Shown here: piece after piece, positions 42,919-60,345 of the stretch
How the letters are laid out: each line of letters opens with the position of its first letter
Position numbering within the stretch: the stretch's first letter is position 1
Assembly (NCBI RefSeq): GCF_018070025.1
Contig: NZ_JAGPYQ010000002.1
Span: forward strand, 682,001 to 746,000
From: Streptomyces liliiviolaceus
Lineage (GTDB): Bacteria; Actinomycetota; Actinomycetes; Streptomycetales; Streptomycetaceae
DNA length: 64,000 bases
Direction of reading: 5' to 3'
The notes under the pieces: generated by a model
What the model saw: only the letters and a program-made list of their open reading frames with translations
The model's database searches: none
What the model was told of the DNA's origin: nothing
Made by a program: the position numbers and the translations under genes

Positions 42919-42935
42919 TCACCCGCAGCGGATGA
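42919..42935. promoter_or_regulatory. Conserved inverted repeat, copy 1
   Basis: TCACC-CGCAGCG-GATGA. It is one of seven copies of the 17-bp motif TCACC-N7-GGTGA found only in divergent gene gaps of the 42.9-59.4 kb region. This copy lies 35 bp before the repeat-protein/RDD gene pair and has one mismatch in the second arm. Confidence 0.6.
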
Positions 42936-42969
42936 TGTGCCCGCGCCCCGTCGGGGGTGCGCTGGCGCC

Positions 42970-43416
42970 ATGACCCGGTACCGCGTTCCTCATCCCCTCG
43001 ATACGGCCGGACGCCTGGCGCGGTTCGCGCTGGGGGCCGCCGCCGACGTCACCGACACGGTGATCCGCAGGCTGACGGCCGCGGTCGTCGACCGGATGGA
43101 CCTGGACGAACTCGTGTCGCGCGTCGACGTGAACCGGATCGCCGAACGCGTCGACGTCGACCGGATCGCGGCCCGGCTGAATCTCGACGCCGTGCTCGAC
43201 CGTATCGATCTGGCCGTCCTCACCAAGGACGTGCTGGAGGAGATCGACCTCGGCCGTATCGTGCGCGACACCGGCGGCGGAATGGCCGACGAGACCGTCC
43301 ACGGGCTCCGGGCCCGGAGCATGCGGGCCGATCGGATGGTGGACCGGATCGCCGACCACCTGCTGCGCAGACCCGACACGTCGGTTTCCGAACCGCCCCA
43401 CCGGCAGACACCCTGA
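42970..43416 (+). CDS. Actinobacterial short-repeat protein, partner of RDD protein
   Basis: This 148-aa protein has no named family that I can give. It starts at the ATG at 42970. Residues about 35-110 are built of consecutive 7-9 residue units around a V/I/L-D pattern (MDLDELVSRVDVNRIAERVD, then VDRIAARLNLDAVLDRID, ending EEIDLGRIV). These would make an amphipathic repeat. No signal or membrane helix is clear. The next gene, for an RDD membrane protein, begins 12 bp later, so the two are an operon. In other actinobacteria I recall similar repeats joined to RDD domains. Confidence 0.78.
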   Translation: MTRYRVPHPLDTAGRLARFALGAAADVTDTVIRRLTAAVVDRMDLDELVSRVDVNRIAERVDVDRIAARLNLDAVLDRIDLAVLTKDVLEEIDLGRIVRDTGGGMADETVHGLRARSMRADRMVDRIADHLLRRPDTSVSEPPHRQTP

Positions 43417-43428
43417 CGGGGGCGCACC

Positions 43429-43878
43429 GTGACGGGGGCGGAGCGGGCCGAAGGTCCGCCGGGGGAAGCCGCAGGACTCGTGTCGCGGGCCCTGGCGGGC
43501 CTGGTCGACGCGTTCGTGGTCGCCGGGCTCGGGCTCGCCGTGCAGCTCGGGGCAGGCGCCCTGCGGCTGCTCGTCAGCGGGCCGCCGTTCCGGCTGCCGG
43601 ACCCACCGGTCTGGCTGTCCGGTCTGTGCGGCTGGAGCATCGCCCTGCTCTATCTCGCGGCCGGCTGGGTCGTGACCGGCAGCACCGTGGGCGGCCGGCT
43701 TTTGGGCCTGCGCGTCACCGGCCGCTCGGGCAGGCTGCCGGGTGTCCTGCGCGCCCTCGCGCGTGCCGCGCTGTGCCTGCTGTTCCCCCTCGGCCTGCTG
43801 TGGATCCCGGTGAGCAGGCGCCGTGCGTCGGTCCAGGATCTCGTCCTGGCCACCACCGTCCACTACGACAGGATGTGA
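43429..43878 (+). CDS. RDD-family membrane protein
   Basis: The 149-aa protein starts at a GTG at 43429. It has an RDD domain with three to four helices (SRALAGLVDAFVVAGLGLAV, WLSGLCGWSIALLYLAAGWV, GSTVGGRLLGLRVTG and ALCLLFPLGLLWIPVSRRRA). RDD proteins are small integral membrane proteins. Some function in Na+/H+ antiport and many are uncharacterised. It is translated right after the short-repeat protein and is convergent with the MFS gene. Confidence 0.88.
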   Translation: MTGAERAEGPPGEAAGLVSRALAGLVDAFVVAGLGLAVQLGAGALRLLVSGPPFRLPDPPVWLSGLCGWSIALLYLAAGWVVTGSTVGGRLLGLRVTGRSGRLPGVLRALARAALCLLFPLGLLWIPVSRRRASVQDLVLATTVHYDRM

Positions 43879-43895
43879 CGGTCCGTCACCACTGT

Positions 43896-45299
43896 TCACG
43901 CGCCGGGCTGTTGCCTGGGCAGCATGGCCGCGGCGGCGAGTCCGCCCAGGCCGACGACGGCCAGGACGCCCAGAGCCACCGCGTACGGTCCCGCGGCGGG
44001 GTCGGCGACGAGGATCGTGCCCGCGATCGCCGTGCCGAGCGACGAGCCGAGGTTCGACACACTGCGGGAGAGCCCCGAGATCTCGCCCTGCCGCTCCTCG
44101 CCGAAGCTCGACTGGACGACATTGACCGACGGGGTGAGCATCACGCCGAGTCCGAGGCCGATGAGGAGCAGTCCGGGGGTGAAGGCCCAGACGCTCGGCG
44201 AGCCGGAGGCCATCACGATGAGCAGGGCGATCCCGCAGATCGTGACGCCGAAGCCCACGAGGATGAGCGTGCGCTGCGGCCACCGCTGCACCAGACGCTC
44301 GGCGGCGAGCGAGGCCGCGAGGATGCCGAGGGTGGCCGCGGTGAAGATCGCCCCGGTCTCGATGGCGTCGTACCCGCGTACGACCTGGAGATACGCGGCC
44401 ACCACGAACGACACCCCCATCAGCATCAGCCACTGGGCGTGCTGGGTGACGAGCCCGAGGTTGGACGTGCGGTCGTGGAACAGGCTCGTCGAGAACAGCG
44501 GTTCCCGGCCGGACCGTTCCTTCGCGCGCACCCAGCGGAAGAGCCACACCAGGACGAGCGCGCCGAGCAGCAGCAGGCCCGCCATCAGCCAGCCGTTGTC
44601 GTCGGCGGCCAGGATGCCCATGACGACGAGGACCAGACCGACCGCCGACAGGACGGCGCCGCCCATGTCGAAGTGCCGCTCCGGCTCCGGCGGCAGGGGG
44701 TCCGGGACCTGGCGGCTCAGCACGATGATCAGGGCGACCACCGCCGCCTGGAAGACGAAGGCGGCCCGCCAGCCGATCGCCGAGGTGATGAGCCCGCCGA
44801 TCAGAGGCCCCGCGGCGGCGCCGATCCCGCCCAGCGCCATGACGGTCCCGAACGCGCGGGCCCGGGAGGTCACATCGGGGAACAGCAGCGTGGTGAGGAT
44901 GTAGACGGGCGGGATGAGCAGGGCCGTGCCGATCCCCTGGAGGATCGAGTAGCCGAGGCCGAGGATCGCGAGGCCCGGCGCGAGTGCGCTGAGCACGGCT
45001 CCCACCCCGTAGACGGTGAGGCCGGCGAGGAAGCAGCGTTTGCGGCCGTAGCGGTCGGTCAGCTTCCCGCCCGGGATCATCAGCGCCGCCATCGTCAGCA
45101 GGAAGACCGTGATGACGGTCTGCACGCCCTGGACGGTGGTGTCCAGGTCCTCGCTGATGTCGTTGATCATGACGTTCATGTTGGAGCCGGCGTAGCTGCA
45201 GATGAACTGGGCGAGCGCGAGCGGGGCCAGGACGCGTCGCGCGGGGCGCGCTGTCTGTCCCGGGGCCCTCGTTTCAGGGGGATTCGGTGGCATGGCCAT
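43896..45299 (-). CDS. MFS drug-efflux transporter (DHA2/EmrB-like)
   Basis: The 467-aa protein starts at the ATG at 45299, with GGGAG 5-6 bp upstream (MAMPPNPPETRAPGQ). It has 12-14 helices, motif A GGKLTDRYGRKR and the antiporter motif C in GGIGAAAGPLIGGLI. Proton-linked efflux of a toxic compound is the family role. It is divergent from the SulP gene, and the conserved inverted repeat lies between them. A long in-frame reading beyond 45299 runs antisense through the SulP gene and is not coding. Confidence 0.92.
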   Translation of the reverse strand: MAMPPNPPETRAPGQTARPARRVLAPLALAQFICSYAGSNMNVMINDISEDLDTTVQGVQTVITVFLLTMAALMIPGGKLTDRYGRKRCFLAGLTVYGVGAVLSALAPGLAILGLGYSILQGIGTALLIPPVYILTTLLFPDVTSRARAFGTVMALGGIGAAAGPLIGGLITSAIGWRAAFVFQAAVVALIIVLSRQVPDPLPPEPERHFDMGGAVLSAVGLVLVVMGILAADDNGWLMAGLLLLGALVLVWLFRWVRAKERSGREPLFSTSLFHDRTSNLGLVTQHAQWLMLMGVSFVVAAYLQVVRGYDAIETGAIFTAATLGILAASLAAERLVQRWPQRTLILVGFGVTICGIALLIVMASGSPSVWAFTPGLLLIGLGLGVMLTPSVNVVQSSFGEERQGEISGLSRSVSNLGSSLGTAIAGTILVADPAAGPYAVALGVLAVVGLGGLAAAAMLPRQQPGA

Positions 45300-45355
45300 G
45301 TCGGCTCCCGGACGTTCGGATGCGAACATCGTCCGTGGCCGCTGATCGCCCGTCA

Positions 45356-45372
45356 TCACCCTTGCGAGGTGA
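45356..45372. promoter_or_regulatory. Conserved inverted repeat, copy 2
   Basis: TCACC-CTTGCGA-GGTGA, with perfect 5-bp arms and a 7-base spacer, between the divergent MFS and SulP genes. In this copy GCG is one base earlier in the spacer than in the others. Confidence 0.7.
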
Positions 45373-45434
45373 CGACGGGTTCGTACGCCACGGAGTAGAT
45401 GTCGATGAGCGAGGGGACCGGGCGGAGGGCCGCG

Positions 45435-47177
45435 ATGCCAGGTGACAGGAAGAGCGCTTCGAGCGTCCCGCCCGGCCTGCGTACGCTCCTGGCCTACCGG
45501 CGGGAGTGGCTCGCCAAGGACGTCGTCGCGGGCGTCGTCCTCACCACGCTGCTCGTGCCGCAGGGCATGGCGTACGCGGAGCTGGCGGGACTGCCCGCGA
45601 TCACCGGGCTGTACACGTCCGTGCTCTGTCTGCTCGCCTACGCCGTGTTCGGCCCGTCCCGCATCCTGGTGCTCGGCCCGGACTCCTCGCTGGGCCCGAT
45701 GATCGCCGCCACGGTCCTGCCCCTGATCGTCGCGGGAGGGGACAGCGGGCGGGCCGTGGCGCTCGCCTCGATGCTCGCGCTCATGGTCGGGGCGATCACG
45801 ATCCTGGCGGGGGTGGCGAAGCTCGGCTTCATCGCCGACCTCATCTCCAAGCCCACGATGATCGGCTACATGAACGGCCTGGCGCTCACCATCCTGATCG
45901 GGCAGCTGCCGAAGCTGTTCGGCTTCAAGACGGACGCCGACGGGCTGCTCGCCGAGGTCGGGGACTTCTTCCAGGGACTGGCCGACGGGAAGGCGGTGCC
46001 CGCCGCCGTGGCGGTGGGCGTCACGGGGATCGTGCTGATCCTGGTCCTGCAGCGCTGGCTGCCGAAGGTGCCGGCGGTCCTCGTCATGGTGCTGCTGGCG
46101 ATCGCCGCGACCTCGCTCCTCGACCTGGGCCGGCACGGCGTCGGCCTGGTCGGTGAACTCCCCCGCGGTTTCCCGCCGCTGACCTGGCCCGACATCCGTT
46201 GGGACGACCTCGGTCCGCTCTTCGTCGGCGCGCTGGGCATCGCGCTCGTCTCGCTCGCCGACACCATCTCCAACGCCACGGCGTTCGCCACCCGCTCGGG
46301 CCAGGAGGTCCGCGGCAACGAGGAGATGGTCGCGATCGGCGCGGCGAACATGGCGGCCGGGCTGTTCCAGGGCTTCCCCGTCAGTACGAGCGGGTCGCGC
46401 ACGGCAGTGGCCGAACGGGCGGGCGCCCGGAGCCAGCTCACCGGGGTCGTCGGGGCCGGCCTGATCGTCCTCATGCTGGTGCTGCTCCCCGGGCTGTTCC
46501 GCAATCTGCCCCAGCCCGCGCTGGCCGCCGTGGTGATCACGGCGTCGCTGTCCCTGGCCGACCTCCCGGGGACGGTACGGCTGTGGCGTCAGCGCAGGAC
46601 GGAGTTTCTGCTGACGATCGCGGCCTTCCTCGGGGTGGCCCTGCTCGGTGTGCTGCCCGGGATCGCGGTCGCCGTCGGTCTGTCCATCCTCAATGTCTTC
46701 CGGCGGGCCTGGTGGCCGTACAACACCGTTCTGGGACGGGTGCCGGGTCTTGAGGGCTACCACGACGTCCGCTCGTACCCCGAGGCCGAGCATCTGCCCG
46801 GACTGGTGATCCACCGCTTCGACGGTCCGCTGTTCTTCGCCAACGCCAAGGCGTTCCGCAACGAGGTGACACGGCTGGCCCTCGGCGAACCGCAGCCCGT
46901 CTGGGTGCTGATCGCGGCCGAGCCGGTGACCGACGTGGACACCACGGCCGCCGACGAACTGGAGGAACTGGACGAGTCGCTCAACGAACGCGGCATCAGC
47001 CTGGTGTTCGCCGAACTGAAGGACCCGGTGCGACGCAAGATCGAGCAGTACGGACTGACCCGGACCATCGAGCCGGACCACTTCTTCCCCACCATCGAGG
47101 CCGCCGTCGCCGCCTACCGGGAGAAGACCGGCGCCCGGTGGGCGGCGACGGACCGGCCGGCGCCTCCTCAGGACTGA
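45435..47177 (+). CDS. SulP-family anion transporter with STAS domain
   Basis: The 580-aa protein has the SulP core (LLVPQGMAYAELAGLPAITG near the start, then FQGFPVSTSGSRTAVAERAG) and a C-terminal STAS domain (PGLVIHRFDGPLFFANAKAF, DVDTTAADELEELDESL). SulP carriers move sulfate, bicarbonate or dicarboxylates, often with Na+ or H+. I chose the ATG at 45435, six bases after GGAGGG. An ATG at 45399 would add 12 residues. It shares a promoter region holding the conserved repeat with the MFS gene. A gamma carbonic anhydrase with the same motif makes bicarbonate a sensible substrate guess. Confidence 0.9.
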   Translation: MPGDRKSASSVPPGLRTLLAYRREWLAKDVVAGVVLTTLLVPQGMAYAELAGLPAITGLYTSVLCLLAYAVFGPSRILVLGPDSSLGPMIAATVLPLIVAGGDSGRAVALASMLALMVGAITILAGVAKLGFIADLISKPTMIGYMNGLALTILIGQLPKLFGFKTDADGLLAEVGDFFQGLADGKAVPAAVAVGVTGIVLILVLQRWLPKVPAVLVMVLLAIAATSLLDLGRHGVGLVGELPRGFPPLTWPDIRWDDLGPLFVGALGIALVSLADTISNATAFATRSGQEVRGNEEMVAIGAANMAAGLFQGFPVSTSGSRTAVAERAGARSQLTGVVGAGLIVLMLVLLPGLFRNLPQPALAAVVITASLSLADLPGTVRLWRQRRTEFLLTIAAFLGVALLGVLPGIAVAVGLSILNVFRRAWWPYNTVLGRVPGLEGYHDVRSYPEAEHLPGLVIHRFDGPLFFANAKAFRNEVTRLALGEPQPVWVLIAAEPVTDVDTTAADELEELDESLNERGISLVFAELKDPVRRKIEQYGLTRTIEPDHFFPTIEAAVAAYREKTGARWAATDRPAPPQD

Positions 47178-47186
47178 ACCGGCGGC

Positions 47187-48655
47187 CTAGCCGACGGACA
47201 GGACGTGCGTGCCCCAGGCGTCCAGGTCCACGAAGAGTCCGGGACCGGTCAGTTCGGCGCCGGAGCGCGGGTACCGGACGGCGTCGAGCAGACTCGTCAA
47301 CGTCCTCTCCTCGGCGCCGAGTTCGGGCCACGGCAGGCGGATCCTCGCCTGGGCGCGGTGTCCGGAGAGGTTGACCACCGTCAGGAAACGGCCCGCCCCG
47401 CCCGACCAGCCCCAGGCGAGCAGATCGCGGTGGGAGGAGTTGTCGGGCCAGCCCTCGCAGGCGAGGAGCCGCCACTGTCCGGTGCGCATCCCGCTGCGGT
47501 GGACGGCGCCGAGCAGCGTCTCGTGGAAGGCGCGCAGCGCGAGGTCCGGTGTCTCGTCGGGCCGTCGGTCCAGGAAGACCGGCAGCTGGGTGCGGCGCCC
47601 GGTGAACTGCCCCTCGTGCCACAGGGTCGCCCCGGGCAGGGTGGCGATCATGACGGCCGCGGCCCGTTCCTTCGCCGGGTCCATCGTGTGCGCGGCCCGC
47701 GGCTCGTCGTGGTTCTCCAGGAACCGTACGAGCTTGCGCTGGTAGGTCTCGTCCGCCGTGAGGTGTCCGCGGACGGACCCGGGGCTCTCGTGCAGCAGCC
47801 GGTCGTAGAGCCGTTTGTCGTAGCAGAAGTCGAAGCCCTGCTGCTGGAGGTCGAACTCGCGGTCCCAGTACGCCTCGGCGGCGAAGACCATGTCGGGATG
47901 CGCGCGTCGTACGCCGGAGACGACGGTGGGCCAGAAGTCCTCCGCCGGCCGCTCCCCCGCGCGCTCGCCCCAGGTGCGGGCGAAGATGTCGTTCATCATG
48001 AGCATCGCCATGTCGCAGCGGACGCCGTCGCACTGGTCGCCGATCCGCATGAGGACGTCCGTGGTGGCCGCGCGCAGGGCGGGCTCGAAGGCGTTGAGCT
48101 GCACCACGTCCGGCCAGGGCGGGAAGAAGGGGTCGCGGCCACGGGCCAGGACCTGGCCCTCGACGGAGAGGTAGGCCGCCGGATCGCCGCGCAGGTCGTC
48201 CTCGCTCCCCCGGACGAAGTACTCGGGGTGCTCGGCCGTCCAGGGGCTGTCCGGCGCCACGTGGTTGGGCACGTAGTCGAGGAGCAGTCCGATGCCCCTG
48301 CCCGCCAGTTCGGCGCGCGCGGCGGCGAGTCCCGCGCTCCCGCCGAGGTCCGCGTCGACCTCGTAGCGGCGGATGCAGTACGGCGATCCGGCGATCTCCT
48401 CCTCGTGGAGGTCGGGCACGGCCCGGGTGAAGGCGGCGCGCAGGGACGGGTCCCGCAGCGCGATGTCCCGGCCCTGCGGGCTGCGCTCCCACACGCCCAT
48501 GAGCCATACGGCGTCGATGCCGTGCGGGGTGATCTCGTCCCAGGCGTCCTTGGGGACGTCGCCCAGTCCTCCGTGGCGGCCGGTCCGCCGCTGGAGCTCG
48601 CGGAGCCAGACACGGGTGTTGACCTCGTGGACGACGGGCTGTGCGGGGATCGGGC

Positions 48656-48659
<4 letters not shown>
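47187..48659 (-). CDS. GH13 alpha-amylase-family glycoside hydrolase
   Basis: The 490-aa protein has a TIM-barrel GH13 layout: GIGLLLDYVPNH, the nucleophile aspartate in DGVRCDMAML, the acid/base glutamate in FAAEAYWDREF and the transition-state aspartate in LENHDEP. No signal peptide is seen, so it should act inside the cell on an alpha-glucan or disaccharide. It begins at the ATG at 48659, which overlaps the GH63 stop (ATGA). Joint work with that enzyme is likely. A trehalose- or glycogen-type substrate cannot be read from sequence. Confidence 0.9.
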
Positions 48660-51382
<2,723 letters not shown>

Positions 51383-51446
51383 CCTGGCTCCCTGTCACAG
51401 GCCTACCGGGGCTGCGTCAGTCTGTCCGGCCCCCTCCGGCGGTGCC

Positions 51447-51463
51447 TCACCTGCCGCGGGTGA
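51447..51463. promoter_or_regulatory. Conserved inverted repeat, copy 3
   Basis: TCACC-TGCCGCG-GGTGA, with perfect arms, in the 176-bp divergent gap between the GH63 and DUF6325 genes. The spacer ends in GCG. It also forms a short hairpin (CCTCACC/GGTGAGG). Confidence 0.75.
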
Positions 51464-51484
51464 GGCCCCCGGCGGTCCGTCCCC

Positions 51485-51501
51485 TCACCTGTGGCGGGTG
51501 A
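51485..51501. promoter_or_regulatory. Conserved inverted repeat, copy 4
   Basis: TCACC-TGTGGCG-GGTGA, with perfect arms, 38 bp from copy 3 in the same divergent gap. Two sites at close to whole-turn spacing suit cooperative binding of dimers. Confidence 0.75.
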
Positions 51502-51558
51502 CGCGCACCGGGCCGGAAGGCGGCTGGATGGAGGCGGACCACATCGAAGGGAGCGGTC

Positions 51559-52113
51559 ATGGTCAGGATCGGACCTGTGCAACTGCTGACGGTCGAGTTC
51601 GGACCCGACGCGAAGTTCGAGGGAAGGATCATCGACGAGCTCGTGGCGCTCGACCGCAGCGGCCAAGTCCGCTTGCTGGACCTGCTCTTCGTACAGAAGG
51701 AGGCCGACGGAAGTCTCGTCACGCTCGACTACCAGGCCGAGGGCATGGGGCAGACCGTCGCCGCCCTGCTCGGCATCTCGCGCGAGGTGCTGGAGGGCGC
51801 GGAGGCGGAGTTCCCGTCGCTGGCCGAGGGGAACGCCTTCGGTCTCGCACCGGACGACATCCTGGGCCTGGCGGGGCAACTGACCCCGGGGACCGCCGCC
51901 GGCTTCGTCCTGCTGGAACACACCTGGGCCAGGGAACTGAGGGCGGCGATCCGCGACGCGGGCGGCGTGCCCGTCGCGGAGGGCTTCCTCACGGAGGAGT
52001 CCCTCGGCCTCGTGGTCGTGGAAATCACCGACGCCGTCGCGCGACTGGACGAGGCGGCCTCGGAACAAACCCGTAAGGGCCGGACGTCCGGCCGTGACAC
52101 CAGGAGGTCCTGA
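51559..52113 (+). CDS. DUF6325-family protein
   Basis: This 184-aa protein (MVRIGPVQLLTVEFG) matches the DUF6325 family of actinobacterial soluble proteins (ELVALDRSGQVRLLDLLFVQ, GTAAGFVLLEHTWARELRAA, GGVPVAEGFLTEESL). Biochemical function is unknown. The pattern of a ligand-free alpha/beta fold followed by a helical tail is shared with DUF1269 proteins. Its stop overlaps the next ATG by one base (TGATG), so it is an operon with the DUF1269 gene. Confidence 0.85.
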   Translation: MVRIGPVQLLTVEFGPDAKFEGRIIDELVALDRSGQVRLLDLLFVQKEADGSLVTLDYQAEGMGQTVAALLGISREVLEGAEAEFPSLAEGNAFGLAPDDILGLAGQLTPGTAAGFVLLEHTWARELRAAIRDAGGVPVAEGFLTEESLGLVVVEITDAVARLDEAASEQTRKGRTSGRDTRRS

Positions 52114-52595
52114 TGACCGATCTCGTCGTGCTCGGCTTCTCCGACAAGGAGAAGGCCGAATCCGTGCTGCGCCTCTCGAAGGACCTGTCCAAGCAGGAAC
52201 TTCTCGACCTGGAGGACGCGGCGCTCGCCTGGCGGACCCCGGACGGCAAGATCCATGTCCGCCAGTCCTTCAGCCCCACCGCGCACGGAGCCGCCGGGGG
52301 CGCCCTGTGGGGCACGCTCTTCGGCCTGCTCTTCCTGATGCCGGTGTTCGGTGCCGCGGTCGGCGCGGGCACGGGCGCGCTCGCCGGGAAGCTCACGGAC
52401 GTGGGCATCAACGACGCGTTCATCAAGGAGATCGCGGGCACGCTCGAACCGGGCCGGGCAGCCGTCTTCGCGCTCGTCCGGCGTTCGACGCCCGACCGGG
52501 TGCGCGAGGCGCTGCGTCCGTTCGGTCCCACCGTGCTGCGCACGTCGCTGACCAAGGAGCGCGAGGAGGAGCTGATCGCCACCCTGCAGCAGTGA
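52113..52595 (+). CDS. DUF1269-family membrane-associated protein
   Basis: The 160-aa protein has the DUF1269 layout: DLVVLGFSDKEKAESVLRLS, then a Gly-rich hydrophobic hairpin (GAAGGALWGTLFGLLFLMPV, FGAAVGAGTGALAGKLTD), then a soluble end (AVFALVRRSTPDRVREALRP). Members are small, probably membrane-bound proteins of unknown role, often near stress genes. It is translationally coupled to the DUF6325 gene and followed by a strong terminator-like hairpin. Confidence 0.88.
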   Translation: MTDLVVLGFSDKEKAESVLRLSKDLSKQELLDLEDAALAWRTPDGKIHVRQSFSPTAHGAAGGALWGTLFGLLFLMPVFGAAVGAGTGALAGKLTDVGINDAFIKEIAGTLEPGRAAVFALVRRSTPDRVREALRPFGPTVLRTSLTKEREEELIATLQQ

Positions 52596-52621
52596 AACCC
52601 GTCGACGCGCCCGGGCGAACT

Positions 52622-52633
52622 TCACCCGGGTGA
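52622..52633. promoter_or_regulatory. Short-spacer form of the conserved repeat
   Basis: TCACC-CG-GGTGA is the same arms with a 2-base spacer, about 90 bp before the LAL regulator gene. It may be a weak operator or only the base of the nearby hairpin. Confidence 0.35.
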
Positions 52634-52635
52634 GA

Positions 52636-52676
52636 TGTGGCCCGCACCGGTCCGCGGCTTCCCGGTGCGGGCCACA
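52636..52676 (+). terminator. Strong hairpin after the DUF1269 gene
   Basis: A perfect 15-bp stem (TGTGGCCCGCACCGG at 52636-52650 with its complement at 52662-52676) has an 11-base loop. It follows the DUF1269 stop by 40 bp and precedes the LAL gene, which fits a transcription terminator. Confidence 0.75.
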
Positions 52677-52722
52677 CTCTCGTCTGGCGGACGTCCACTG
52701 CGCTGGGAGCGAGGTACCACCG

Positions 52723-55458
52723 ATGGACGAGCGGACAGAACGACGGCGCCCGCCGGACCCGCCTGCCCCGCCCCCGCCGGCCCGCGTCGGGACCTCTGTG
52801 AGACGGCAGCACCGAGCGCCCCGCATGTCCCCGCCCGGTGTGCCACCGCTGCCGACGTGGCTGGTCCCCCGCCCCCGGCTGACGGACCGTCTCTCGCAGG
52901 GCGTACTGGGCCCGTTGACCGTGGTCGTGGGCCCTGTGGGAGCGGGCAAGTCGGCGCTGGCGGTGGAGTGGGCGCACACGCGGCGTGCGCCGGGTCCGGT
53001 GGCCTGGGTGACCTGCGACGGGGCGGAGGAGCAGCCCGACGTCTTCTGGCCGCGCGTCCTGGCGGCGCTGCGCGAGGCGGAGATAGACCTGCCGTCACTC
53101 GCCGCCCCACCCCTCACACCCCCGGGCTTCATCGTCCCGGCCCCCCAGCCGCCCTTGAAGGAGCGCGACAACGGCGAGCACACCCCCGAACAGGGCCCGC
53201 CACAGGCACCCCTCAAGGGGCGCGAGGAACTGCGCGACCAGCCCCCACCCACCCGCAGCAGCGAGCACACCCCGGAACAGGGCGCACCACAGGCGCCCCC
53301 CAAGGGGCGCGAGGAACTGCGCGACCAGCCCCCACCGGCCCGCAGCCGACAACCAACCGCCAACGGCACGCCCCGGAGCACAGGTCTGTACGCCGCCGCC
53401 CCCGACGCAGTCGGACTCCACGGCTTCCCGGCCGCAGCGGTGCCACCCGGCCCGTCAGCAGGACAGCCCATGCTCGTGGCCGCCCTCGCGGCCGACCTCG
53501 CCGCCCGCGAGGAGCCCGTCGTCCTCGTCCTGGACGACTTCCAGCCGGAGAGCGGCTCACCGGTCGCCGAGGGCATGGTCCGGCTCCTCCGGCACGCGAC
53601 CCCCGCCCTGCGGCTGGTCGTGGTCTCGCGCCGGGATCCGCCGCTGCATCTGCACCGGTACCGGCTGGCCGGCGACCTCACCGAACTGCGCACCGGGGAC
53701 CTCGCCTTCGACGACCGGGAGACGGCGGCGCTGCTGGCCCAGCACGGTGTCGAGGTGCCACGGCCGGTGGTGAAGACCCTGCGCGAGCGGGCGGACGGCT
53801 GGGCGGCCGGCCTGCGGCTGGCCGCGATGTCCATGCAGGGGCATCCCCACCCGGAGCGGTTCGTGGCACGGTTCGCGGGCGAGGACGAGGCGATCGTCAG
53901 CTACCTGGTCGAGGAGGTCCTGGACGGCCAGCCCCCGGCGATGCGCAGGCTCCTGCTGACGACCAGCGTGCTGGACCATCTGAACGCCGAACTGGCCACC
54001 CAGGTCGCGGGCCAGGAGGCCGGCCGGCACTTCGCGGCGCTCGTCGCGCAGAGCTCCTTCCTGCAGCACATCGGTCACGGGTGGTACCGGTGCCACCGGA
54101 TGTTCGCCGACGTCCTGCGGGTGCGGCTGCGCCACGAGGCACCGGACCTCGTGCCCGATCTGCACGGCCGGGCGGCCGAGTGGCTGGGCGAGCACGGACT
54201 CCTCGCCGAGGCGGTACGCCATGCCCTCGCCGCGGACGACCGCCGCTACGCCGACCGTCTCGTCGTGCATCAGCTGGCGATCGGGCAGGTCCTCGCCCTG
54301 ACGAGCACCCGGCTGCCCGGCGAACTGCTGACCCGGACGCCGCCCGCCGGCCCCACGGGGGCCGCCCGGAAGGCCCCCGGACCGGAGTCCGCGCTCGTCA
54401 CCTCGGCGGCGGCGCTCGCCCGGGGCGACGGGCCGGCCTGCACGGAGAGCCTCGCCCTCGCCGACCGGCTGATCGGGGAGCTGCCCGGGGGCGGCACCGA
54501 CCGGATCGCCCGGTGCCGGCTGGCGCACTCCGTGATCCGGATGACGAGGGACCGCCCCCGGCACCTCACGGCGGCGAGGGCCGCCGCGGCGGACGCCGAG
54601 CGGCTCTTCGCCCGGCTGCCGCGCGGCCTGCTGGAGGACCGACCCGAACTGGTGGCGCTGACCCTGTCGGTCCGTGGCCGCGCCGAGCTGCGGGAGGGCG
54701 ACCTCAAGGCGGCGGAGGCGTCCCTGACCACCGCCCTCAAGGCCGCCTCCGCGGCCGAGAACGGTGTCCTGCGCCGGGACTGCCTCTCCGAACTGGCGCT
54801 GCTTGAGGTGCTGCGCGGGCGGTTCCGGGCCGCGGACCAGTTCGCCGGGCACGCCCGGCACCCCGCACCGCAGGCCTCGTCGGAGCCGGACCCGTCCCTG
54901 GCCGCGCTGTACGTCGTACGGTCCTGGATCGGTCTGACGCGCCTCGACGTGCAGCGGGCACGGGGCGAACTCTCCCGGGCCCGTGCCACCCTGCGCCAGG
55001 TGCCCGACCCGTTCGTCACCGGCGTCGGCTCACTGGTCGCCAAACTCATGACCGCGGTGGAGACCGGCACGGCGCGACCCGAGACCCTGGACGCCATCCC
55101 CGACCTCACGGCGGACGGCTGGCTCGCCGAAGGGCTGCGGCAGTCGGTGCGGCACGCGTGCGCCGCCTCGCTCGACGAGGCACGCGCCCGCCGGCTCCCG
55201 GCGCGGTCGGTGTCCGGCGCGCGCGGCACGCCGGACCCCCTGCCGCGGGACGAGCGGGCCCCGGTCGAGTCGCTCAGCGCGCGCGAACGCGATGTCCTGC
55301 GTCATCTGGCGCAGATGATGACGACGGAGGAGATCGCCGACGAGCTGTACGTGTCGGTGAACACGGTGAAGACGCATCTCAAGAGCGTCTACCGCAAGCT
55401 CGCCGTGACCCGGCGTTCGGCGGCGGTACGGCGGGCCCGCGAACTCGAACTGCTGTAG
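52723..55458 (+). CDS. LAL/MalT-type LuxR regulator with in-frame repeat insertion
   Basis: This 911-aa regulator starts at the ATG at 52723. It has Walker A GPVGAGKS at residues 70-77 and Walker B VVLVLDD near 266-272. A winged-helix and helical-repeat middle follows (LAAMSMQGHPHPERFVARFA, WYRCHRMFADVLRVRLRHEA). A C-terminal LuxR HTH occupies about 845-905 (LSARERDVLRHLAQ, VNTVKTHLKSVYRKL). Such proteins switch on target genes when a ligand and ATP are bound. Between Walker A and Walker B, residues about 143-208 are a tandem 29-residue repeat rich in Pro, Glu and Arg, coming from the dispersed palindrome. The insertion keeps the frame. Whether the ATPase still works is unknown. Confidence 0.9.
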   Translation: MDERTERRRPPDPPAPPPPARVGTSVRRQHRAPRMSPPGVPPLPTWLVPRPRLTDRLSQGVLGPLTVVVGPVGAGKSALAVEWAHTRRAPGPVAWVTCDGAEEQPDVFWPRVLAALREAEIDLPSLAAPPLTPPGFIVPAPQPPLKERDNGEHTPEQGPPQAPLKGREELRDQPPPTRSSEHTPEQGAPQAPPKGREELRDQPPPARSRQPTANGTPRSTGLYAAAPDAVGLHGFPAAAVPPGPSAGQPMLVAALAADLAAREEPVVLVLDDFQPESGSPVAEGMVRLLRHATPALRLVVVSRRDPPLHLHRYRLAGDLTELRTGDLAFDDRETAALLAQHGVEVPRPVVKTLRERADGWAAGLRLAAMSMQGHPHPERFVARFAGEDEAIVSYLVEEVLDGQPPAMRRLLLTTSVLDHLNAELATQVAGQEAGRHFAALVAQSSFLQHIGHGWYRCHRMFADVLRVRLRHEAPDLVPDLHGRAAEWLGEHGLLAEAVRHALAADDRRYADRLVVHQLAIGQVLALTSTRLPGELLTRTPPAGPTGAARKAPGPESALVTSAAALARGDGPACTESLALADRLIGELPGGGTDRIARCRLAHSVIRMTRDRPRHLTAARAAAADAERLFARLPRGLLEDRPELVALTLSVRGRAELREGDLKAAEASLTTALKAASAAENGVLRRDCLSELALLEVLRGRFRAADQFAGHARHPAPQASSEPDPSLAALYVVRSWIGLTRLDVQRARGELSRARATLRQVPDPFVTGVGSLVAKLMTAVETGTARPETLDAIPDLTADGWLAEGLRQSVRHACAASLDEARARRLPARSVSGARGTPDPLPRDERAPVESLSARERDVLRHLAQMMTTEEIADELYVSVNTVKTHLKSVYRKLAVTRRSAAVRRARELELL
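53149..53346 (+). repeat. In-frame 87-bp tandem repeats inside the LAL regulator gene
   Basis: Two full 87-bp units and a third partial unit each hold the core AAGGGGCGCGAGGAACTGCG, starting at 53215 and 53302. The first, more diverged, unit starts near 53149 (PLKERDNGEHTPEQ). They encode PLKGREELRDQPPP at residues 163 and 192. 87 bp is 29 codons, so the repeat count can change without a frameshift. The extended repeat matches the one at 2597-2640 in the MocR-PhoD gap. Confidence 0.9.
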
Positions 55459-55481
55459 AGCGAGCGCCCGCTGACGGTGTC

Positions 55482-55964
55482 TCAGACAAGCCCCAGTTGC
55501 CTCGCGCGGGCGACGGCGCCCGTGCGCGACGAGACCCTGAGTTTGCGGTAGACGGCCCGCACATGGCTCTTCACCGTGTTGTGCGAGATGAAGAGTTCCG
55601 AGCCGATCTGCCGCAGCGGCACGTCCTCCTGGAGCCGGACGAGCACCGCGTGCTCGCGTTCCGTCAGGAGGCCGGCCGGCGTCGCGGGATCCGGACGCCC
55701 GGCGTCGCCGGAGGGCACGGCGGCCAGCGCGGCCGACGCCTCGTCCAGCAACAGATGCGTACTGCGCGGGTCGCCCGACTCGGCGGCGATGTCCATGAGC
55801 GCGTCGGCGACCCACACCAGACACGCGGCCACCACGGTGTCCGTGTCCTCGGCAGCCCGGTCCAGAGCCCGTAACTGCCCCCTCAGCACGGAGACCCGCA
55901 CGAAATCCGGCCCGTCGAAGTGCCCTTGCCTTCCTCCCCGTTCGGCCTTCAGGACGGTAGGCAT
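55482..55964 (-). CDS. Short LuxR-family regulator
   Basis: The 160-aa protein starts at the ATG at 55964 after a perfect GGAGGTGAG ribosome site. A long upstream in-frame extension lacks one. Residues about 95-155 are a LuxR HTH (LTEREHAVLVRLQEDVPLRQ, then SHNTVKSHVRAVYRKLRVSS) closely like that of the LAL gene. The front part (about 20-80) is a helical region with no known effector fold. It is convergent with the LAL gene, with 23 bp between stops. It could modify the same target set. Confidence 0.88.
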   Translation of the reverse strand: MPTVLKAERGGRQGHFDGPDFVRVSVLRGQLRALDRAAEDTDTVVAACLVWVADALMDIAAESGDPRSTHLLLDEASAALAAVPSGDAGRPDPATPAGLLTEREHAVLVRLQEDVPLRQIGSELFISHNTVKSHVRAVYRKLRVSSRTGAVARARQLGLV

Positions 55965-56075
55965 ACGACTCACCTCCTCGACAGAGAGCGAAGGGCGGTA
56001 CACAGCAACCGTGCGGGCTGGATCTTGGGACGGGAAGGGGACTTAGGACCAATTCACCCAGATGCCGGACGGCGT

Positions 56076-56372
56076 CTACAACGCGTTGGGGGAGGCGGGA
56101 TCCGTACCGGGACCGCGTCCCTCGGGCAATCGGCGCACTTCGACCAGCTCCAGTCCGAGGGCCTGAATGCGGTCCAGGATTCCGTACAGCGCCGCCTGGT
56201 CGAGCCGGGCGCCGTGCAGGACGGTCTCCGGCGGACTGACCGTGACGGTCAGCTCGGCGAAGGCGGAGCGGAAGGCCTGGGAGACCCTGCCCTTGATCCG
56301 GATCTCGAAATCCCCGCCCACGGGCCGCGCCTCGCCCCGCTCGGGTCCAGGACGTTCCTCCGCCGTTCCCAT
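56076..56372 (-). CDS. Conserved 98-aa protein of unknown function
   Basis: A small but real gene: the core FEIRIKGRVSQAFRSAFAEL with TVLHGARLDQAALYGILDRI and GLELVEVRRLPEGRG is a pattern I remember as conserved in actinobacterial genomes. It looks like a ferredoxin-like or ACT-like alpha/beta sandwich of unknown ligand. The first 20 residues are polar and Arg/Glu-rich. It is divergent from the DUF7144 gene, with two copies of the conserved repeat between them. Confidence 0.8.
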   Translation of the reverse strand: MGTAEERPGPERGEARPVGGDFEIRIKGRVSQAFRSAFAELTVTVSPPETVLHGARLDQAALYGILDRIQALGLELVEVRRLPEGRGPGTDPASPNAL

Positions 56373-56439
56373 GCCGCGTCACCTCCGCTGCCCGGGGCCG
56401 GGTCACGTCTCCATTCTCACAGGCCGTGCGAAGGACACA

Positions 56440-56456
56440 TCACACAGCGGGGGTGA
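56440..56456. promoter_or_regulatory. Conserved inverted repeat, copy 5
   Basis: TCACA-CAGCGGG-GGTGA, with one mismatch in the first arm, in the gap between the 98-aa gene and the DUF7144 gene, on the side nearer the 98-aa start. Confidence 0.6.
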
Positions 56457-56494
56457 CGGAGACGGCCGGTCCGGTCCGCACACGGCTCCGACAC

Positions 56495-56511
56495 TCATCC
56501 ACAGCGGGTGA
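56495..56511. promoter_or_regulatory. Conserved inverted repeat, copy 6
   Basis: TCATC-CACAGCG-GGTGA, with one mismatch in the first arm and GCG at the spacer end, 55 bp from copy 5 and 57 bp before the DUF7144 start codon. Confidence 0.65.
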
Positions 56512-56567
56512 AGCTCAGCCCCCGGAATCAGCGGGATGCTCCTGCTCCCGACAAGGAGGTACCCGAC

Positions 56568-57029
56568 ATGGCTGAGCAGACCTCGGCAGGGCAGACCCGG
56601 CAGGGCCGGCCCCCGCAGGAACCCCGGATCAAGCCACTGATGGTCGGCGGGGTCGTCTTCGCCGTCTGCATGATGGCCATCGTGGGCGCGTACCAGGTGT
56701 TCGTCGGCATGGGCGCGTTGATGGAGGACAACTTCTACACCCGGGCGAACGACTACCCGTACGACCTCAACATCAATGTGTGGGGCTGGGTCCACCTGAT
56801 CTCCGGGATCGTCATCGTGGCCGCCGCCTTCAGCGTGTTCAAGGGCAAGACCTGGGCGCGGGTCGTCGGCATCACGGTCGCCGCGCTGAGCGCGATGGAG
56901 AACTTCTTCTTCACCCCGTACTACCCGCTCTGGTCGATCGTGATCATCGCGTTCGACGTGCTGATCATCTGGTCCCTGGCCAGCTACGGCCACGCACAGG
57001 CCCACAAGGTCTACGGGGCGCCGATGTAG
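56568..57029 (+). CDS. DUF7144-family four-helix membrane protein
   Basis: The 153-aa protein starts at the ATG at 56568, 8 bp after AAGGAGGT. It has four membrane helices (MVGGVVFAVCMMAIVGAYQV, WVHLISGIVIVAAAFSVF, WARVVGITVAALSAME and WSIVIIAFDVLIIWSLASY). The short tail KVYGAPM is cytoplasmic by charge. This is the layout of the actinobacterial family annotated DUF7144 (formerly a DoxX-like group). Function is unknown. The strong ribosome site suggests high expression. Confidence 0.88.
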   Translation: MAEQTSAGQTRQGRPPQEPRIKPLMVGGVVFAVCMMAIVGAYQVFVGMGALMEDNFYTRANDYPYDLNINVWGWVHLISGIVIVAAAFSVFKGKTWARVVGITVAALSAMENFFFTPYYPLWSIVIIAFDVLIIWSLASYGHAQAHKVYGAPM

Positions 57030-57063
57030 CCCGGCACCGTCCGGCCGACCCGGCTCGTGCGGC

Positions 57064-59295
57064 TCATGCGCCGGGCTCCGCCGGCCGTGCCGCCGTCGGG
57101 CGTGCGTGTCCGCGGGCCGACGGCAGGGCCAGCCGGGCGATCCGGGACCAGTCGAGCCTGGGCAGCGGCGAGCGCGTCCCCGGACGCTCGCGCGGCACCA
57201 GCACACGCAGCGCACCCGGCCGTGCCTCGCAGCGCACGGGGACGGTCAGGTTCAGTGCCTCCCCGTCGACGCCGACCGGGATCCGCTCCCGGTCGGCGTC
57301 GACGACCACCTCCCGCGCGGTGACCCGGGTCAGACCGGTGGCACGGCGTCCGCGCAGAAGTCCGGCGGCCTGGGCGGCACTGGCCACGTCGACCCCGACG
57401 ACCCCCAACTCACCGCCGTCGAGGCGGGGTCGGCGGCCCAGCCCGGCGATGTCGCCCGTGCCGTAGGGGTTGTTGCTCACCAACAGCGCCTGCGGTGCCT
57501 CGAAGTCCGCCTCGCCGGCCCGGGCGGCGAGCCGCGCGCCGCGATGGCCCACGAGCAGGTCGGGGAGGAGTTCCAGGGTCGTACGGGTCTTGCCGTCGCG
57601 GTAGGCCGGGCTCTGCACCACCTCGGCGTACGCCCCGAACGACACGTTGTTGACGAAGGGGTGACCGGCCGCGCGGCCCAGGTCGACGCGGAGCAGCACC
57701 CCGTCGGTCAGGGCGTCGAGCGCCTTCGCCGGATCCTCGCGGTCGAGCCCCAGGTCGAGGGCGAAGTGGTTGCGGGTGCCGGCCGGCACCACCAGGAAGG
57801 GGAGGTCGAGCGAGGCGGCGACATCGGCCACCAGCGCCTGGGTGCCGTCCCCGCCCGCGACGCCGAGCAGATCGGCGCCCTCGCTCGCGGCCTTGCGCGC
57901 GAGTTCGGCGACGTCGGTGTCGCCCGGCCCCTCCAGGAGGAGGACCTGCGCGCCCAGTGCCTCGGCCTTCTCCCGCAGCCCGAACCGTTCCACCTTGCCG
58001 CCGCCCGAGCGCGGATTCATGATCAGGACGGGGTGCCGCACCCGCGGGGCGGGGTGCTCCGGTGTCCGGGCCGGTCCGTCGGCGCCGACGAGGGCTCTGC
58101 GGCCCGCGCCGACCGCGAACATCGACAGTGCCCCGGCCACGGCGACGACCCACGCCAGATGGGCCCGGGTGTACGCGACGACGATCCACACCGGTGCGGC
58201 GACGGCCAGCACGGCGGCGAGCAGCCGCCCTACGCTCCGTCGCGTGAGCACCCACCAGAGTGCCGCCGCCGTGACCGCCAGACCGGCCAGTCCCACAGCC
58301 AGCAGGGCGAAAGTCCGCAGTCCCGCGAACACGCCCAGCACCAGTACCGCCGCCGCGGCCGCCGCCAGCGCTCCGCGCGCCGACCACCGCTGCCCCCGCG
58401 TAGTGGGTTCCATGGCGTGACGATCGTTCGTGCCCGGCGGGGGCGCATCACCCCCGGCAGGGGATCCGCCCGTGGTTCCGCCCTTTCCTGGTTCCGTCAG
58501 TCCCAGCCAGGGACTGAGGAGGGCGTCGTGGGCCAGTACGTACCCGATCGCGATGCCGCCCGCGACGATCGCGAAGAAGAAGATGAGCCACGACAGCACC
58601 GTGAAGACGGAGCCGAGCGGCCCGTACCGGTCGACGCTCAGCTCCAGTGAGCGCGGCAGCCAGAGCCCGGACACGGCGGAGTACAGGACGACCCCGATCC
58701 CGGTGAGCAGGGCGCCCGGCAGCAGCGGCAGCCACGCCACCCGCCCGGCGAGCAGCAGGTGCTGCGTCCACCACCACATGAGGACCGCGGCGATCAGCTG
58801 AAGGGGGAACCCCAGGGCGGTCCCGACGCCGAATCCGTCGCGCAGGGTTCCCTGGGACACCAGCACGGTGACCCAGACCAGGAGCCACACGCCCCAGCGC
58901 CACACCACGGTCCGCAGTCCGGCGCGCGGCAGGTGCCAGGCGCGCTCGCACAGCCGTTGCAGTGCCCGGCTGAAGGCGGTCGCGGACAGGAGTGCCACCA
59001 GCACCCCGATCGCGCCCCAGGTCTCCAGCGAATCGGCGGCGCCCCGGTAGACCTCGTCCACCTGGGTCAGGACCGGTCCCGTGGTGCCCAGCTGGGTGCG
59101 CAGCGTGCCCACCAGTTCGCGGCGGATCGCGGGCGGAGTGAAGGACGCGATGGCGAAGAGCATCGGCAGCGCGGCCAGAAAGGCCTGCGCGGCGAGACGG
59201 GTCGCCATGTCCAGGATGCTCACGCTGACGAGCTGTCGGCCGACGGGGACCCCGATACGGCCCGTCATCGCCCGGGCGAGCCTCGTGAACACCAT
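57064..59295 (-). CDS. BrkB/YihY membrane protein fused to a diacylglycerol/lipid kinase domain
   Basis: One 743-aa frame (ATG at 59295 after GGGAGG) joins two proteins. Residues about 1-285 are a YihY/BrkB six-helix membrane domain (VSVSILDMATRLAAQAFLAA, VFTVLSWLIFFFAIVAGGIA). About 300-425 are four more helices, and about 430-735 form a lipid-kinase domain with NPRSGGGK, VAGGDGT and VVPAGTRNHFALDLGLDRED. These kinases phosphorylate diacylglycerol or related lipids. A start at an internal ATG (58413, residue 295) is possible, but no ribosome site precedes it. The fusion is the simpler reading. It is divergent from the carbonic anhydrase gene. Confidence 0.85.
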   Translation of the reverse strand: MVFTRLARAMTGRIGVPVGRQLVSVSILDMATRLAAQAFLAALPMLFAIASFTPPAIRRELVGTLRTQLGTTGPVLTQVDEVYRGAADSLETWGAIGVLVALLSATAFSRALQRLCERAWHLPRAGLRTVVWRWGVWLLVWVTVLVSQGTLRDGFGVGTALGFPLQLIAAVLMWWWTQHLLLAGRVAWLPLLPGALLTGIGVVLYSAVSGLWLPRSLELSVDRYGPLGSVFTVLSWLIFFFAIVAGGIAIGYVLAHDALLSPWLGLTEPGKGGTTGGSPAGGDAPPPGTNDRHAMEPTTRGQRWSARGALAAAAAAVLVLGVFAGLRTFALLAVGLAGLAVTAAALWWVLTRRSVGRLLAAVLAVAAPVWIVVAYTRAHLAWVVAVAGALSMFAVGAGRRALVGADGPARTPEHPAPRVRHPVLIMNPRSGGGKVERFGLREKAEALGAQVLLLEGPGDTDVAELARKAASEGADLLGVAGGDGTQALVADVAASLDLPFLVVPAGTRNHFALDLGLDREDPAKALDALTDGVLLRVDLGRAAGHPFVNNVSFGAYAEVVQSPAYRDGKTRTTLELLPDLLVGHRGARLAARAGEADFEAPQALLVSNNPYGTGDIAGLGRRPRLDGGELGVVGVDVASAAQAAGLLRGRRATGLTRVTAREVVVDADRERIPVGVDGEALNLTVPVRCEARPGALRVLVPRERPGTRSPLPRLDWSRIARLALPSARGHARPTAARPAEPGA

Positions 59296-59363
59296 GCCCG
59301 TGCCCTCCCGGCCCCCGGAAACCTGTCGGCACGTCACCCTCTTCCCCGCCGGGCCGACGCGCC

Positions 59364-59380
59364 TCGCCCGGGGCGGGTGA
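59364..59380. promoter_or_regulatory. Conserved inverted repeat, copy 7
   Basis: TCGCC-CGGGGCG-GGTGA, with one mismatch in the first arm and GCG at the spacer end, in the 156-bp divergent gap between the BrkB-kinase and carbonic anhydrase genes. Confidence 0.6.
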
Positions 59381-59451: not shown

Positions 59452-59982
59452 ATGACGCACGAGGCGCTGGTCATGGGGATCGGCGGCAAGGATCCGCAGC
59501 TGGACCCGGAGGCGTTCGTGGCGCCCACGTCCGTGGTCATCGGGGACGTCACCCTGCGGCCGGGCGCGAGCGTCTGGTACGGCGCGGTGCTGCGCGCGGA
59601 CTGCGGTCCGATCGTGATCGGGGCCGACAGCAACGTCCAGGACAACTGCACGCTCCATGTCGACCCGGGGTTTCCGATCAGCATCGGGGAGCGGGTGTCC
59701 ATCGGGCACAACGCCGTGGTGCACGGGGCGGTCGTCGAGGACGACTGTCTGGTGGGGATGGGGGCGACGGTCCTCAACGGGGCGGTGATCGGGGCGGGGT
59801 CGCTGGTCGCCGCGCAGGCGTTGGTGCCGCAGGGTATGCGGGTCCCTCCGGGGGTGCTCGTCGCAGGTGTTCCGGCGAAGGTCAAGCGCGAACTCAGCGC
59901 GGAGGAGCGGGAGGGGGTCTCCCTGAACGGGGTGTTCTACGTCGAACTGGCGAAGGCCCACCGGGACGCGCACGGGGGGTAG
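59452..59982 (+). CDS. Gamma-class carbonic anhydrase
   Basis: The 176-aa protein is a left-handed beta helix (IGDVTLRPGASVWYGAVLRA, NVQDNCTLHVDPG, ISIGERVSIGHNAVVHGAVV). H69, H86 and H91 have the spacing of the zinc-binding histidines of the gamma class (H, then 17 and 22 residues on). It would interconvert CO2 and bicarbonate in the cytoplasm. The ATG at 59452 follows AGGAGACG. An upstream in-frame reading overlaps the BrkB-kinase gene and is not used. Some homologues lack activity, so this is a family call. Confidence 0.9.
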   Translation: MTHEALVMGIGGKDPQLDPEAFVAPTSVVIGDVTLRPGASVWYGAVLRADCGPIVIGADSNVQDNCTLHVDPGFPISIGERVSIGHNAVVHGAVVEDDCLVGMGATVLNGAVIGAGSLVAAQALVPQGMRVPPGVLVAGVPAKVKRELSAEEREGVSLNGVFYVELAKAHRDAHGG

Positions 59983-60024
59983 GGCGGGGGCCGGTCGTTG
60001 TCTGCGGGTCCACTGTGGCTGATC

Positions 60025-60345
60025 GCGCAGTTCCCCGCGCCCCTGAAAAACCCCGCCCACGACGGGCAGCCCCTTCAGGGGCGCGGGGAACTGCGCGGCC
60101 CACCCCCACCGACCCGCAGAGAACAGCCGGAGCCTGGGGGCCGTACGCCAAGTGCGGGACCGTTGTGGCTGGGCGCGCCGTTCCCCGCGCCCCTGATAAA
60201 CACCGCCCACGACAGGCAGCCCCTTCAGGGGCGCGGGGAACTGCGCGGCCCACCCCCACCGGCCCGCAGACAACAGCCGGAGCCCTGGGGGCCGTACGCC
60301 AAGTGCGGGACCGTTGTGGCTGGGCGCGCCGTTCCCCGCGCCCCT
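60025..60345. repeat. Tandem 150-bp palindrome units
   Basis: Three left arms (60025-60047, 60175, 60326) and two right arms (60074-60096, 60227) of the GC-rich palindrome lie in tandem units of 150 bp. The first unit pairs GCGCAGTTCCCCGCGCCCCT plus GAA with its exact complement over 23 bp, giving one of the strongest hairpins in the window. The units share AGCCGGAGCC and CCGTACGCCAAGTGCGGGAC. The block separates the carbonic anhydrase and DedA genes, which are convergent. No gene is seen in the 381-bp gap. Confidence 0.9.

Follow-up and report, generated by a model that had tools for sequence, protein, structure and literature searches.

In a 64,000-nt stretch of the Streptomyces liliiviolaceus genome, hereafter the window, seven copies of a 17-bp inverted repeat, TCACC-N7-GGTGA (TCACCC-N5-GGGTGA in its fuller form), lie between divergent genes, and we consider it quite probable that this repeat is the operator of one regulon, bound by an activating dimer of LAL, a MalT-like ATPase encoded in the same region. 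What the DNA itself shows is an operator that is conserved, keeps a strict spacer and lies at a fixed distance from a -10-like element. Three copies, at 45356..45372, 51447..51463 and 51485..51501, have perfect arms, and four, at 42919..42935 (TCACCCGCAGCGGATGA), 56440..56456, 56495..56511 and 59364..59380, have one mismatch. The copy at 42919 is upstream of the p148-RDD pair, and the one at 45356 is the single palindrome between the minus-strand MFS and plus-strand SulP genes. The copies at 51447 and 51485 are closest to GH63-GH13 (minus) and DUF6325-DUF1269 (plus), respectively, those at 56440 and 56495 to p98 (minus) and DUF7144 (plus), and the last lies between BrkB-DAGK (minus) and a gamma carbonic anhydrase-like gene (gCA, plus).

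A first-pass annotation of the window had listed these seven sites, and its positions and arms proved exact. It had also confined them to five divergent gaps, which our gap survey bears out: the window has 10 divergent gaps, of which five together hold all seven copies; the remaining five hold none, nor do any of the 22 tandem gaps longer than 40 bp. Genes were called with our own simple coding-score (codon usage) caller, and some starts and missed genes reflect caller errors or contig ends, examples of genes missed by the caller being DUF6325 in genome G059 and LuxR in G168. Allowing up to one mismatch, the window contains 11 matches against 2.55 expected (100 shuffles; shuffle maximum 9), the four additional ones, at 7517, 38490, 39609 and 58448, all being intragenic by the gene caller. 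In the intergenic DNA of the 42-60 kb interval (1611 bases), the seven copies compare with a Markov null mean of 0.056, and 0 of 5000 simulations reached seven, so that the comparison with random gaps suggested by the annotation leaves the regulon idea unrefuted. The observation of seven operator copies is thereby confirmed as genuine and beyond chance. An origin of the copies in a repeated mobile element is disfavoured, as their flanks differ.

The spacer length is strict. In the intergenic DNA of the window a spacer of 7 gives seven copies and every other spacer from 0 to 20 gives at most two, and when 37 regions are pooled (136 kb of intergenic DNA) a spacer of 7 accounts for 89 perfect copies and 154 with at most one mismatch, while the other spacers yield 0-3 perfect intergenic copies, save spacer 2 with 17. 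The perfect bare pattern is not rare genome-wide, occurring at 16 places in S. liliiviolaceus and 1-25 in each of 100 other Streptomyces genomes, and these counts fail to separate carriers of the regulon from the others. The signal is therefore carried by clustering, intergenic position and the fixed distance to the -10-like element.

This distance was measured in promoters aligned and oriented to the downstream gene, in which the T of a -10-like ANNNT element lies 28 nt past the palindrome (T28). The alignment comprises 225 promoter rows, namely 189 with the site nearest to the gene and 36 screened ones, where another site is nearer; sites with a gene start more than 200 bp away, or themselves too close to a sequence end, were excluded. 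T28 was present in 124/189 nearest-site promoters, compared with a mean T content of 12% at +10 to +59, and an A at 24 in 92/189; after removal of redundancy T28 was found in 71/111 (p 4e-38), and among the screened sites in just 1/36. In single-site divergent gaps (n=46), T28 occurs on both sides in 20, on one side in 24 and on neither in 2. The window itself has T28 in 7 of 10 promoter directions: on both sides of the copies at 45356 and 59364, on the plus side of 42919, and for 51447 and 51485 towards their closest genes. The exceptions are 56440 (-10-like T at 27), 56495 (T at 26) and the minus side of 42919, where there is none at 28.

The -10 consensus is TANNNT, and if A(24)-NNN-T(28) is read as its -11 and -7 positions, the palindrome is centred near -43. 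Together with the fixed distance from the -10 element, this would be close to the -41.5 of a class II activator site, for transcription starts predicted from sequence, and we read the operator accordingly as occupying a class II position. No TTGAC-like -35 element occurs at the usual spacing in the aligned promoters. A sigma-factor promoter with GGGTGA as its -35 is disfavoured, the -10-like hexamer beginning 23 bases past the arm. Predicted -10 elements include CTGGAT of the DUF6325 promoter (51524..51529, plus strand), that of the MFS promoter (45328..45333, minus) and GTAGAT of the SulP promoter (45395..45400, plus); the last overlaps an ATG at 45399, and SulP therefore probably starts at 45435.

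Orthologous promoters tell the same story. We define islands as the stretches around close relatives (E<=1e-18) of a small LuxR gene of the window, which were found in 16/392 sampled Streptomyces, our own included. In all 15 other islands a LAL gene lies beside the small LuxR together with rearranged parts of the same island, and the palindrome precedes most operons. A site was counted when within 250 bp upstream, excluding island genes below 45% and SHOCT-cluster genes (see below) below 35% identity to the reference. In this way it was found ahead of DUF6325 (10/10), GH63 (12/12), p98 (13/13), DUF7144 (13/13), a second DUF7144 (8/8), MFS (11/12), BrkB-DAGK (12/15), gCA (4/4) and DUF2252 (7/8), and less consistently ahead of p148 (8/11), SulP (6/11, plus four by operon) and HexapepT (3/5). 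RDD has a site directly upstream in 0/11 islands (six by operon) and the small LuxR in 0/13 (one by operon), and the adjacent VTT (0/4) and GH3 (0/3) genes have none. The DUF6325 orthologues of G001, G059 and G081 (61-74% identity) carry a perfect-arm site ending 68-72 bp upstream within otherwise different flanks. The homologue of G048 on contig C14 (58% identity) has no perfect operator, though the G048 island on C55 has it, and among 25 loci with distant DUF6325 homologues (L156-L180) a match with at most one mismatch occurs anywhere in 8 and perfect arms in none. As most of these distant homologues, like the lower-ranked SHOCT matches below, lack an operator, belonging to one of these gene families does not by itself make a gene part of the regulon. 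The annotation had proposed one regulon with a shared operator and had named its absence from orthologous promoters as evidence to the contrary; the sites are present in the 15 islands, and together with the null model they strongly support the proposal.

A second cluster was found in the same genome at 5.85 Mb, where perfect copies (C1: 5847772 and 5850202) precede a SHOCT-DUF7144 operon, an HdeD-like (DUF308) gene and DUF2252, and two one-mismatch copies precede a gene for a 173-aa protein and a GH15 gene. A third contig carries a perfect operator with T28 (C3: 74084, L285), 80 bp ahead of a DUF7144 gene; next come a gene for a PPK2 polyphosphate kinase and a fragment that on inspection looks P-type ATPase-like. 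Relatives of SHOCT were detected in 71/101 and of LAL in 34/101 sampled Streptomyces. The 101 genomes returned 30 SHOCT loci, 23 of which have a site within 300 bp upstream. All of the 20 top-scoring loci (own included) have a perfect site, which in 19 of them is 78-116 bp away from the matched start and in the remaining one 248 bp; just 3 of the ten lower-ranked loci (L247-L256) have a site. We fetched 20 SHOCT stretches, the 19 best-scoring non-own matches and G058, which was added after its site had been seen; all are in the pooled counts. Around the best matches lies a compact cluster of LAL, MFS, the 173-aa protein, a 65-aa p98 homologue, DUF2252, HdeD, SHOCT and DUF7144, with variable gene content and sites in many gaps. 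The operator precedes 16/18 of the p98 copies in these clusters (L257-L275), and a direct site was found for 0/12 of the 173-aa genes (three by operon) and 1/6 of b455.

These clusters also point to the regulator. Where the annotation had noted two LuxR regulators inside the region, LAL (52723..55458, plus strand) is now probably the regulator of the 17-bp operators, being the likeliest candidate by its sequence and distribution, and the small LuxR may serve a shorter palindrome. The LAL start codon was set by eye from the conserved GAGCGAGGTnCC...ATG context. With 911 aa, a C-terminal GerE helix-turn-helix at residues 849-905, a match to the MalT structure at 250-517 (8bob, E 3e-34) and an AAA_16 match below the Pfam cut-off, the protein falls in the LAL class. 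LAL played no part in the search for SHOCT, yet a full LAL gene is present in 15 of the 20 fetched stretches and a truncated end in another; the genomes of the remaining four have a LAL match elsewhere. When 100 other genomes were searched with the C-terminal part of LAL (E<=1e-25), the 19 with the closest match (>=54% identity) were the same 19 that had the top SHOCT scores, all with a perfect site, and G038, next in SHOCT score (70% identity), had neither a site nor a LAL match at this threshold. Over the 30 SHOCT loci, the 23 with a site all come from LAL genomes, and the seven without one divide into two with and five without LAL (Fisher p 1.5e-4); our own genome and G048 enter this table as LAL-positive through their island LALs, which fall below the E cut-off of the search. 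In the 15 remaining LAL neighbourhoods, an unbiased count of inverted repeats placed TCACC-N7 at the top with 27 copies in 12/15 regions. The two repeats ranked next are internal segments of this palindrome, and the most frequent unrelated one has 9 copies. The first 12 neighbourhoods gave 24 copies in 10/12 and three were added later; the SHOCT locus had been seen beforehand for G018, G025, G034 and G058. Island and SHOCT-cluster LALs share 78% identity in the GerE domain and 34% in the remainder, and the GerE helix SVNTVKTHLKS.YRKL is near-constant.

Several observations weigh against control by LAL from a class II position. The agreement between LAL and SHOCT is partly gene linkage, the two being clearly apart (distant or on different contigs) in G000, G026 and G058 only. 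G048, through its island LAL, and G025 possess a LAL together with a site-less SHOCT gene, though the G025 cluster has perfect sites elsewhere, and an N7 site lies within 250 bp of the called LAL start in 3/15 islands and 0/11 SHOCT clusters. T28 is missing in 65/189 promoters and in three of the ten directions in the window, and at a 20-base spacing the right arm's TGA could be taken as part or a remnant of a -35 element. Outside Streptomyces, an intergenic site is present in 5/21 short LAL neighbourhoods, among which TCACC-N7 is not the leading repeat. To these points must be added the published BldM Group I consensus TCACcCgnncGgGTGA, which has the same arms, and on such sites BldM was footprinted in S. 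venezuelae (accessible part of PMC4125116).

The main rival explanation accordingly assigns the sites to BldM, supposing that its homodimer accepts a spacer of seven bases and that the genes belong to the Group I developmental regulon. With a spacer of 6, however, the 37 regions contain no perfect intergenic copy and 8 with at most one mismatch, against 89 and 154 for a spacer of 7, and of the 64 perfect N6 places in our genome none lies in the window or in L188. Fourteen of the 64 were inspected; ten are intragenic and neither whiB nor ssgR was met among them, and many of the N6 places are probably background. The LuxR-type DNA-binding domain of BldM counts for this rival, but BldM is regarded as general to the genus Streptomyces, whereas the N7 sites track the presence of LAL, and we regard an assignment to BldM as unlikely.

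The 17-mer might instead be the operator of a repressor. A site's position alone is no proof of activation; still, the single fixed distance to the -10 and the want of a well-spaced -35 fit an activator, repressor sites usually varying in position, and repression seems to us distinctly improbable, even though a LAL of Streptomyces, SCO6993, is reported to be a repressor (available text of PMC9628970). Hardly more can be said for binding by the small LuxR (55482..55964, minus strand; 160 aa, GerE helix-turn-helix), which we would rate a shade lower still: the islands around it are rich in operators and LAL has a similar recognition helix, but close relatives of the small LuxR occur in 16/392 Streptomyces only, 19 genomes without one have both operators and LAL, and the protein goes better with the 12-bp palindrome described next. 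Chance or base composition, by which GC-rich palindromes would arise in a compact genome, could appeal to the many background matches of the bare pattern, but is refuted by the simulations, the conservation in orthologous promoters and the strict spacer, and hardly deserves credence. An activating LAL dimer on the 17-mer accounts best for the material at hand.

The 12-bp palindrome TCACCCGGGTGA has the same arms with a spacer of 2 and lies at 52622..52633, 89 bp before the LAL start. Its presence in the window alone is insignificant (31/100 shuffles), and it is found in none of the 20 SHOCT-cluster stretches. In the pooled regions, all 17 perfect intergenic spacer-2 sites are TCACCCGGGTGA ahead of a LAL gene (L181-L185, L205-L226), and the palindrome is exact in 15/16 small-LuxR islands, being doubled in G048 and G337, with one mismatch in G123. 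The T of a CACACT-like element follows it at 45 nt in 10/15 islands and at 46-47 nt in the other five. The small LuxR, which matches the IniR model NF038181 over residues 73-150 (33 of 750 bits), is a candidate regulator of this palindrome, a link that is suggestive only, because the islands share ancestry.

With regard to the other genes of the window, p148 encodes a 148-aa protein (42970..43416, plus) upstream of the RDD family gene (43480..43878, plus; a longer start at 43429 is possible), followed by the MFS transporter (43896..45299, minus) and the SulP-type transporter with a STAS domain (45435..47177, plus). The GH13-like alpha-amylase fold protein (47187..48659) and the MGH1-like or GH63 glycoside hydrolase (48656..51382) are encoded on the minus strand, and DUF6325 (51559..52113) and DUF1269 (52113..52595) on the plus strand. 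Beyond LAL and the small LuxR lie p98 (56076..56372, minus), DUF7144 (56568..57029, plus), the BrkB-DAGK fusion with its diacylglycerol kinase-like part (57064..59295, minus) and the gamma carbonic anhydrase-like hexapeptide protein gCA (59452..59982, plus). The gene names of the annotation hold generally, apart from that of the protein called DUF6325, which matches no Pfam family. The same is true of p98, a conserved actinomycete protein with a homologue near LAL in most clusters; its family numbers 392 homologues at E<=0.001, and an alignment of 46 sequences shows 17 invariant columns. The interval 59983-60345, which separates the carbonic anhydrase-like gene from VTT, contains two tandem copies of 150 nt (87% identical) plus a partial third; they have long internal inverted repeats and resemble a REP-type element.

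We propose that a LAL dimer would bind the 17-mer by placing a GerE helix-turn-helix on each half-site, with the centre near -43, and from this class II position would touch RNA polymerase, offsetting a poor or absent -35. A shared single palindrome may serve both divergent genes, and where a gap holds two, each would serve the nearest promoter. Read-through from the DUF6325-DUF1269 pair, which is under the operator, into the LAL gene 127 bp further on may allow the switch to feed itself. MalT, whose signal is maltotriose, remains inactive as long as its ligand and ATP have not enabled it to multimerise. LAL could likewise be inactive until ligand and ATP permit multimerisation, and then recruit polymerase at about 15 promoters of the genome. 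By analogy with maltotriose for MalT and with trehalose as reported for mycobacterial IniR, the signal might be a small, sugar-like solute connected with envelope or osmotic stress, and the products would be transporters (SulP, MFS), membrane-type proteins (DUF7144, RDD, BrkB-DAGK, HdeD-like) and glycoside hydrolases that possibly remove the ligand. An envelope, osmotic or bicarbonate function is a guess, and so is a glucosylglycerate or trehalose role, as the GH63 and GH15-like proteins have no solved-structure relative at the thresholds used.

More tentatively, and with rather less than even confidence, we imagine that three GerE regulators of one cell share TCACCC/GGGTGA and are separated by spacing alone, with 6 for BldM (development), 7 for LAL (a stress-type regulon) and 2 for the small LuxR (the LAL promoter). 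In this scheme the small LuxR would turn on LAL, and LAL might act back on both. If true, the identity of a regulon would be written in half-site spacing alone. The regulon raises a question of specificity, namely how two activators with the same half-site are distinguished by one base pair. It also provides an operator, a promoter geometry and a probable regulator, all open to test, for genes whose role is unknown, such as DUF7144, SHOCT, DUF2252, HdeD-like, p98 and BrkB-DAGK.

Beyond Streptomyces the evidence for the operator is mixed, and its extension across the LAL class is weak (the 5/21 neighbourhoods above). A scan for the exact 17-mer gave at least 118 stretches, the counts being those of a sample with taxonomic groups assigned by hand. 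Among the matches listed, 21/22 in Streptomyces, 35/45 in other Actinomycetota and 31/51 in other phyla are intergenic, T28 is present in 17/30, 13/35 and 3/11, and a LAL-similar protein is encoded at 9, 11 and 2 loci, respectively. Exact 17-mers close to DUF7144-, SHOCT-, HdeD- or LAL-like genes occur in genera such as Nocardia, Lentzea, Arthrobacter, Jiangella and Nocardioides. At one non-Streptomyces locus of 3.4 kb (L346), a LAL-like gene is accompanied by two perfect and one one-mismatch intergenic operators.

Leaving aside MalT and the regulators of antibiotic clusters, no LAL clade is known to us whose operator consensus and regulon have been defined. A literature search, which covered few subscription papers and neither preprints nor supplements, found neither the 17-bp operator described nor these genes grouped into a regulon. 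The annotation had called the regulon undescribed, which stands for the 17-bp version and the gene set and fails for the half-site, published as part of the 16-bp BldM site. SCO6993, SCO0877 and SCO7173 belong to the same protein class as LAL and have reported roles in antibiotic and phosphate control (PMC9628970 and PMC3282765, as far as accessible); SCO6993 binds short palindromes for which no consensus could be defined (PMC9628970, same text), and the accessible part of PMC3282765 names no operator for SCO0877 and SCO7173. IniR, a mycobacterial ATPase with a LuxR-like domain for which a response to trehalose under envelope stress is reported, resembles LAL in this architecture, but its equivalog model (NCBIfam NF038181) does not match LAL at E<=0.001, its gene set differs, and the available text of PMC5760070, from which this account is taken, gives no operator. 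LAL shares with MalT its similarity and the C-terminal GerE domain, but scores 234.8 bits against the NCBIfam MalT model, far below the equivalog cut-off of 537 bits, and differs in the genes concerned and in having a palindrome near -43 in place of short MalT boxes (PMC9628970, in the part available). Also close is the BldM Group I operator of S. venezuelae, footprinted by a homodimer that acts mainly as an activator: it has the same half-site (TCACCCG/CGGGTGA in our 189-promoter profile), is likewise a dimer palindrome upstream of activated genes and differs in its spacer of 6 (16 bp) from the spacer of 7 (17 bp) found here (accessible part of PMC4125116). Measured against these systems, the half-site and the general kind, a LuxR-type activator, are known, and the spacing, the gene set and the probable regulator are new.

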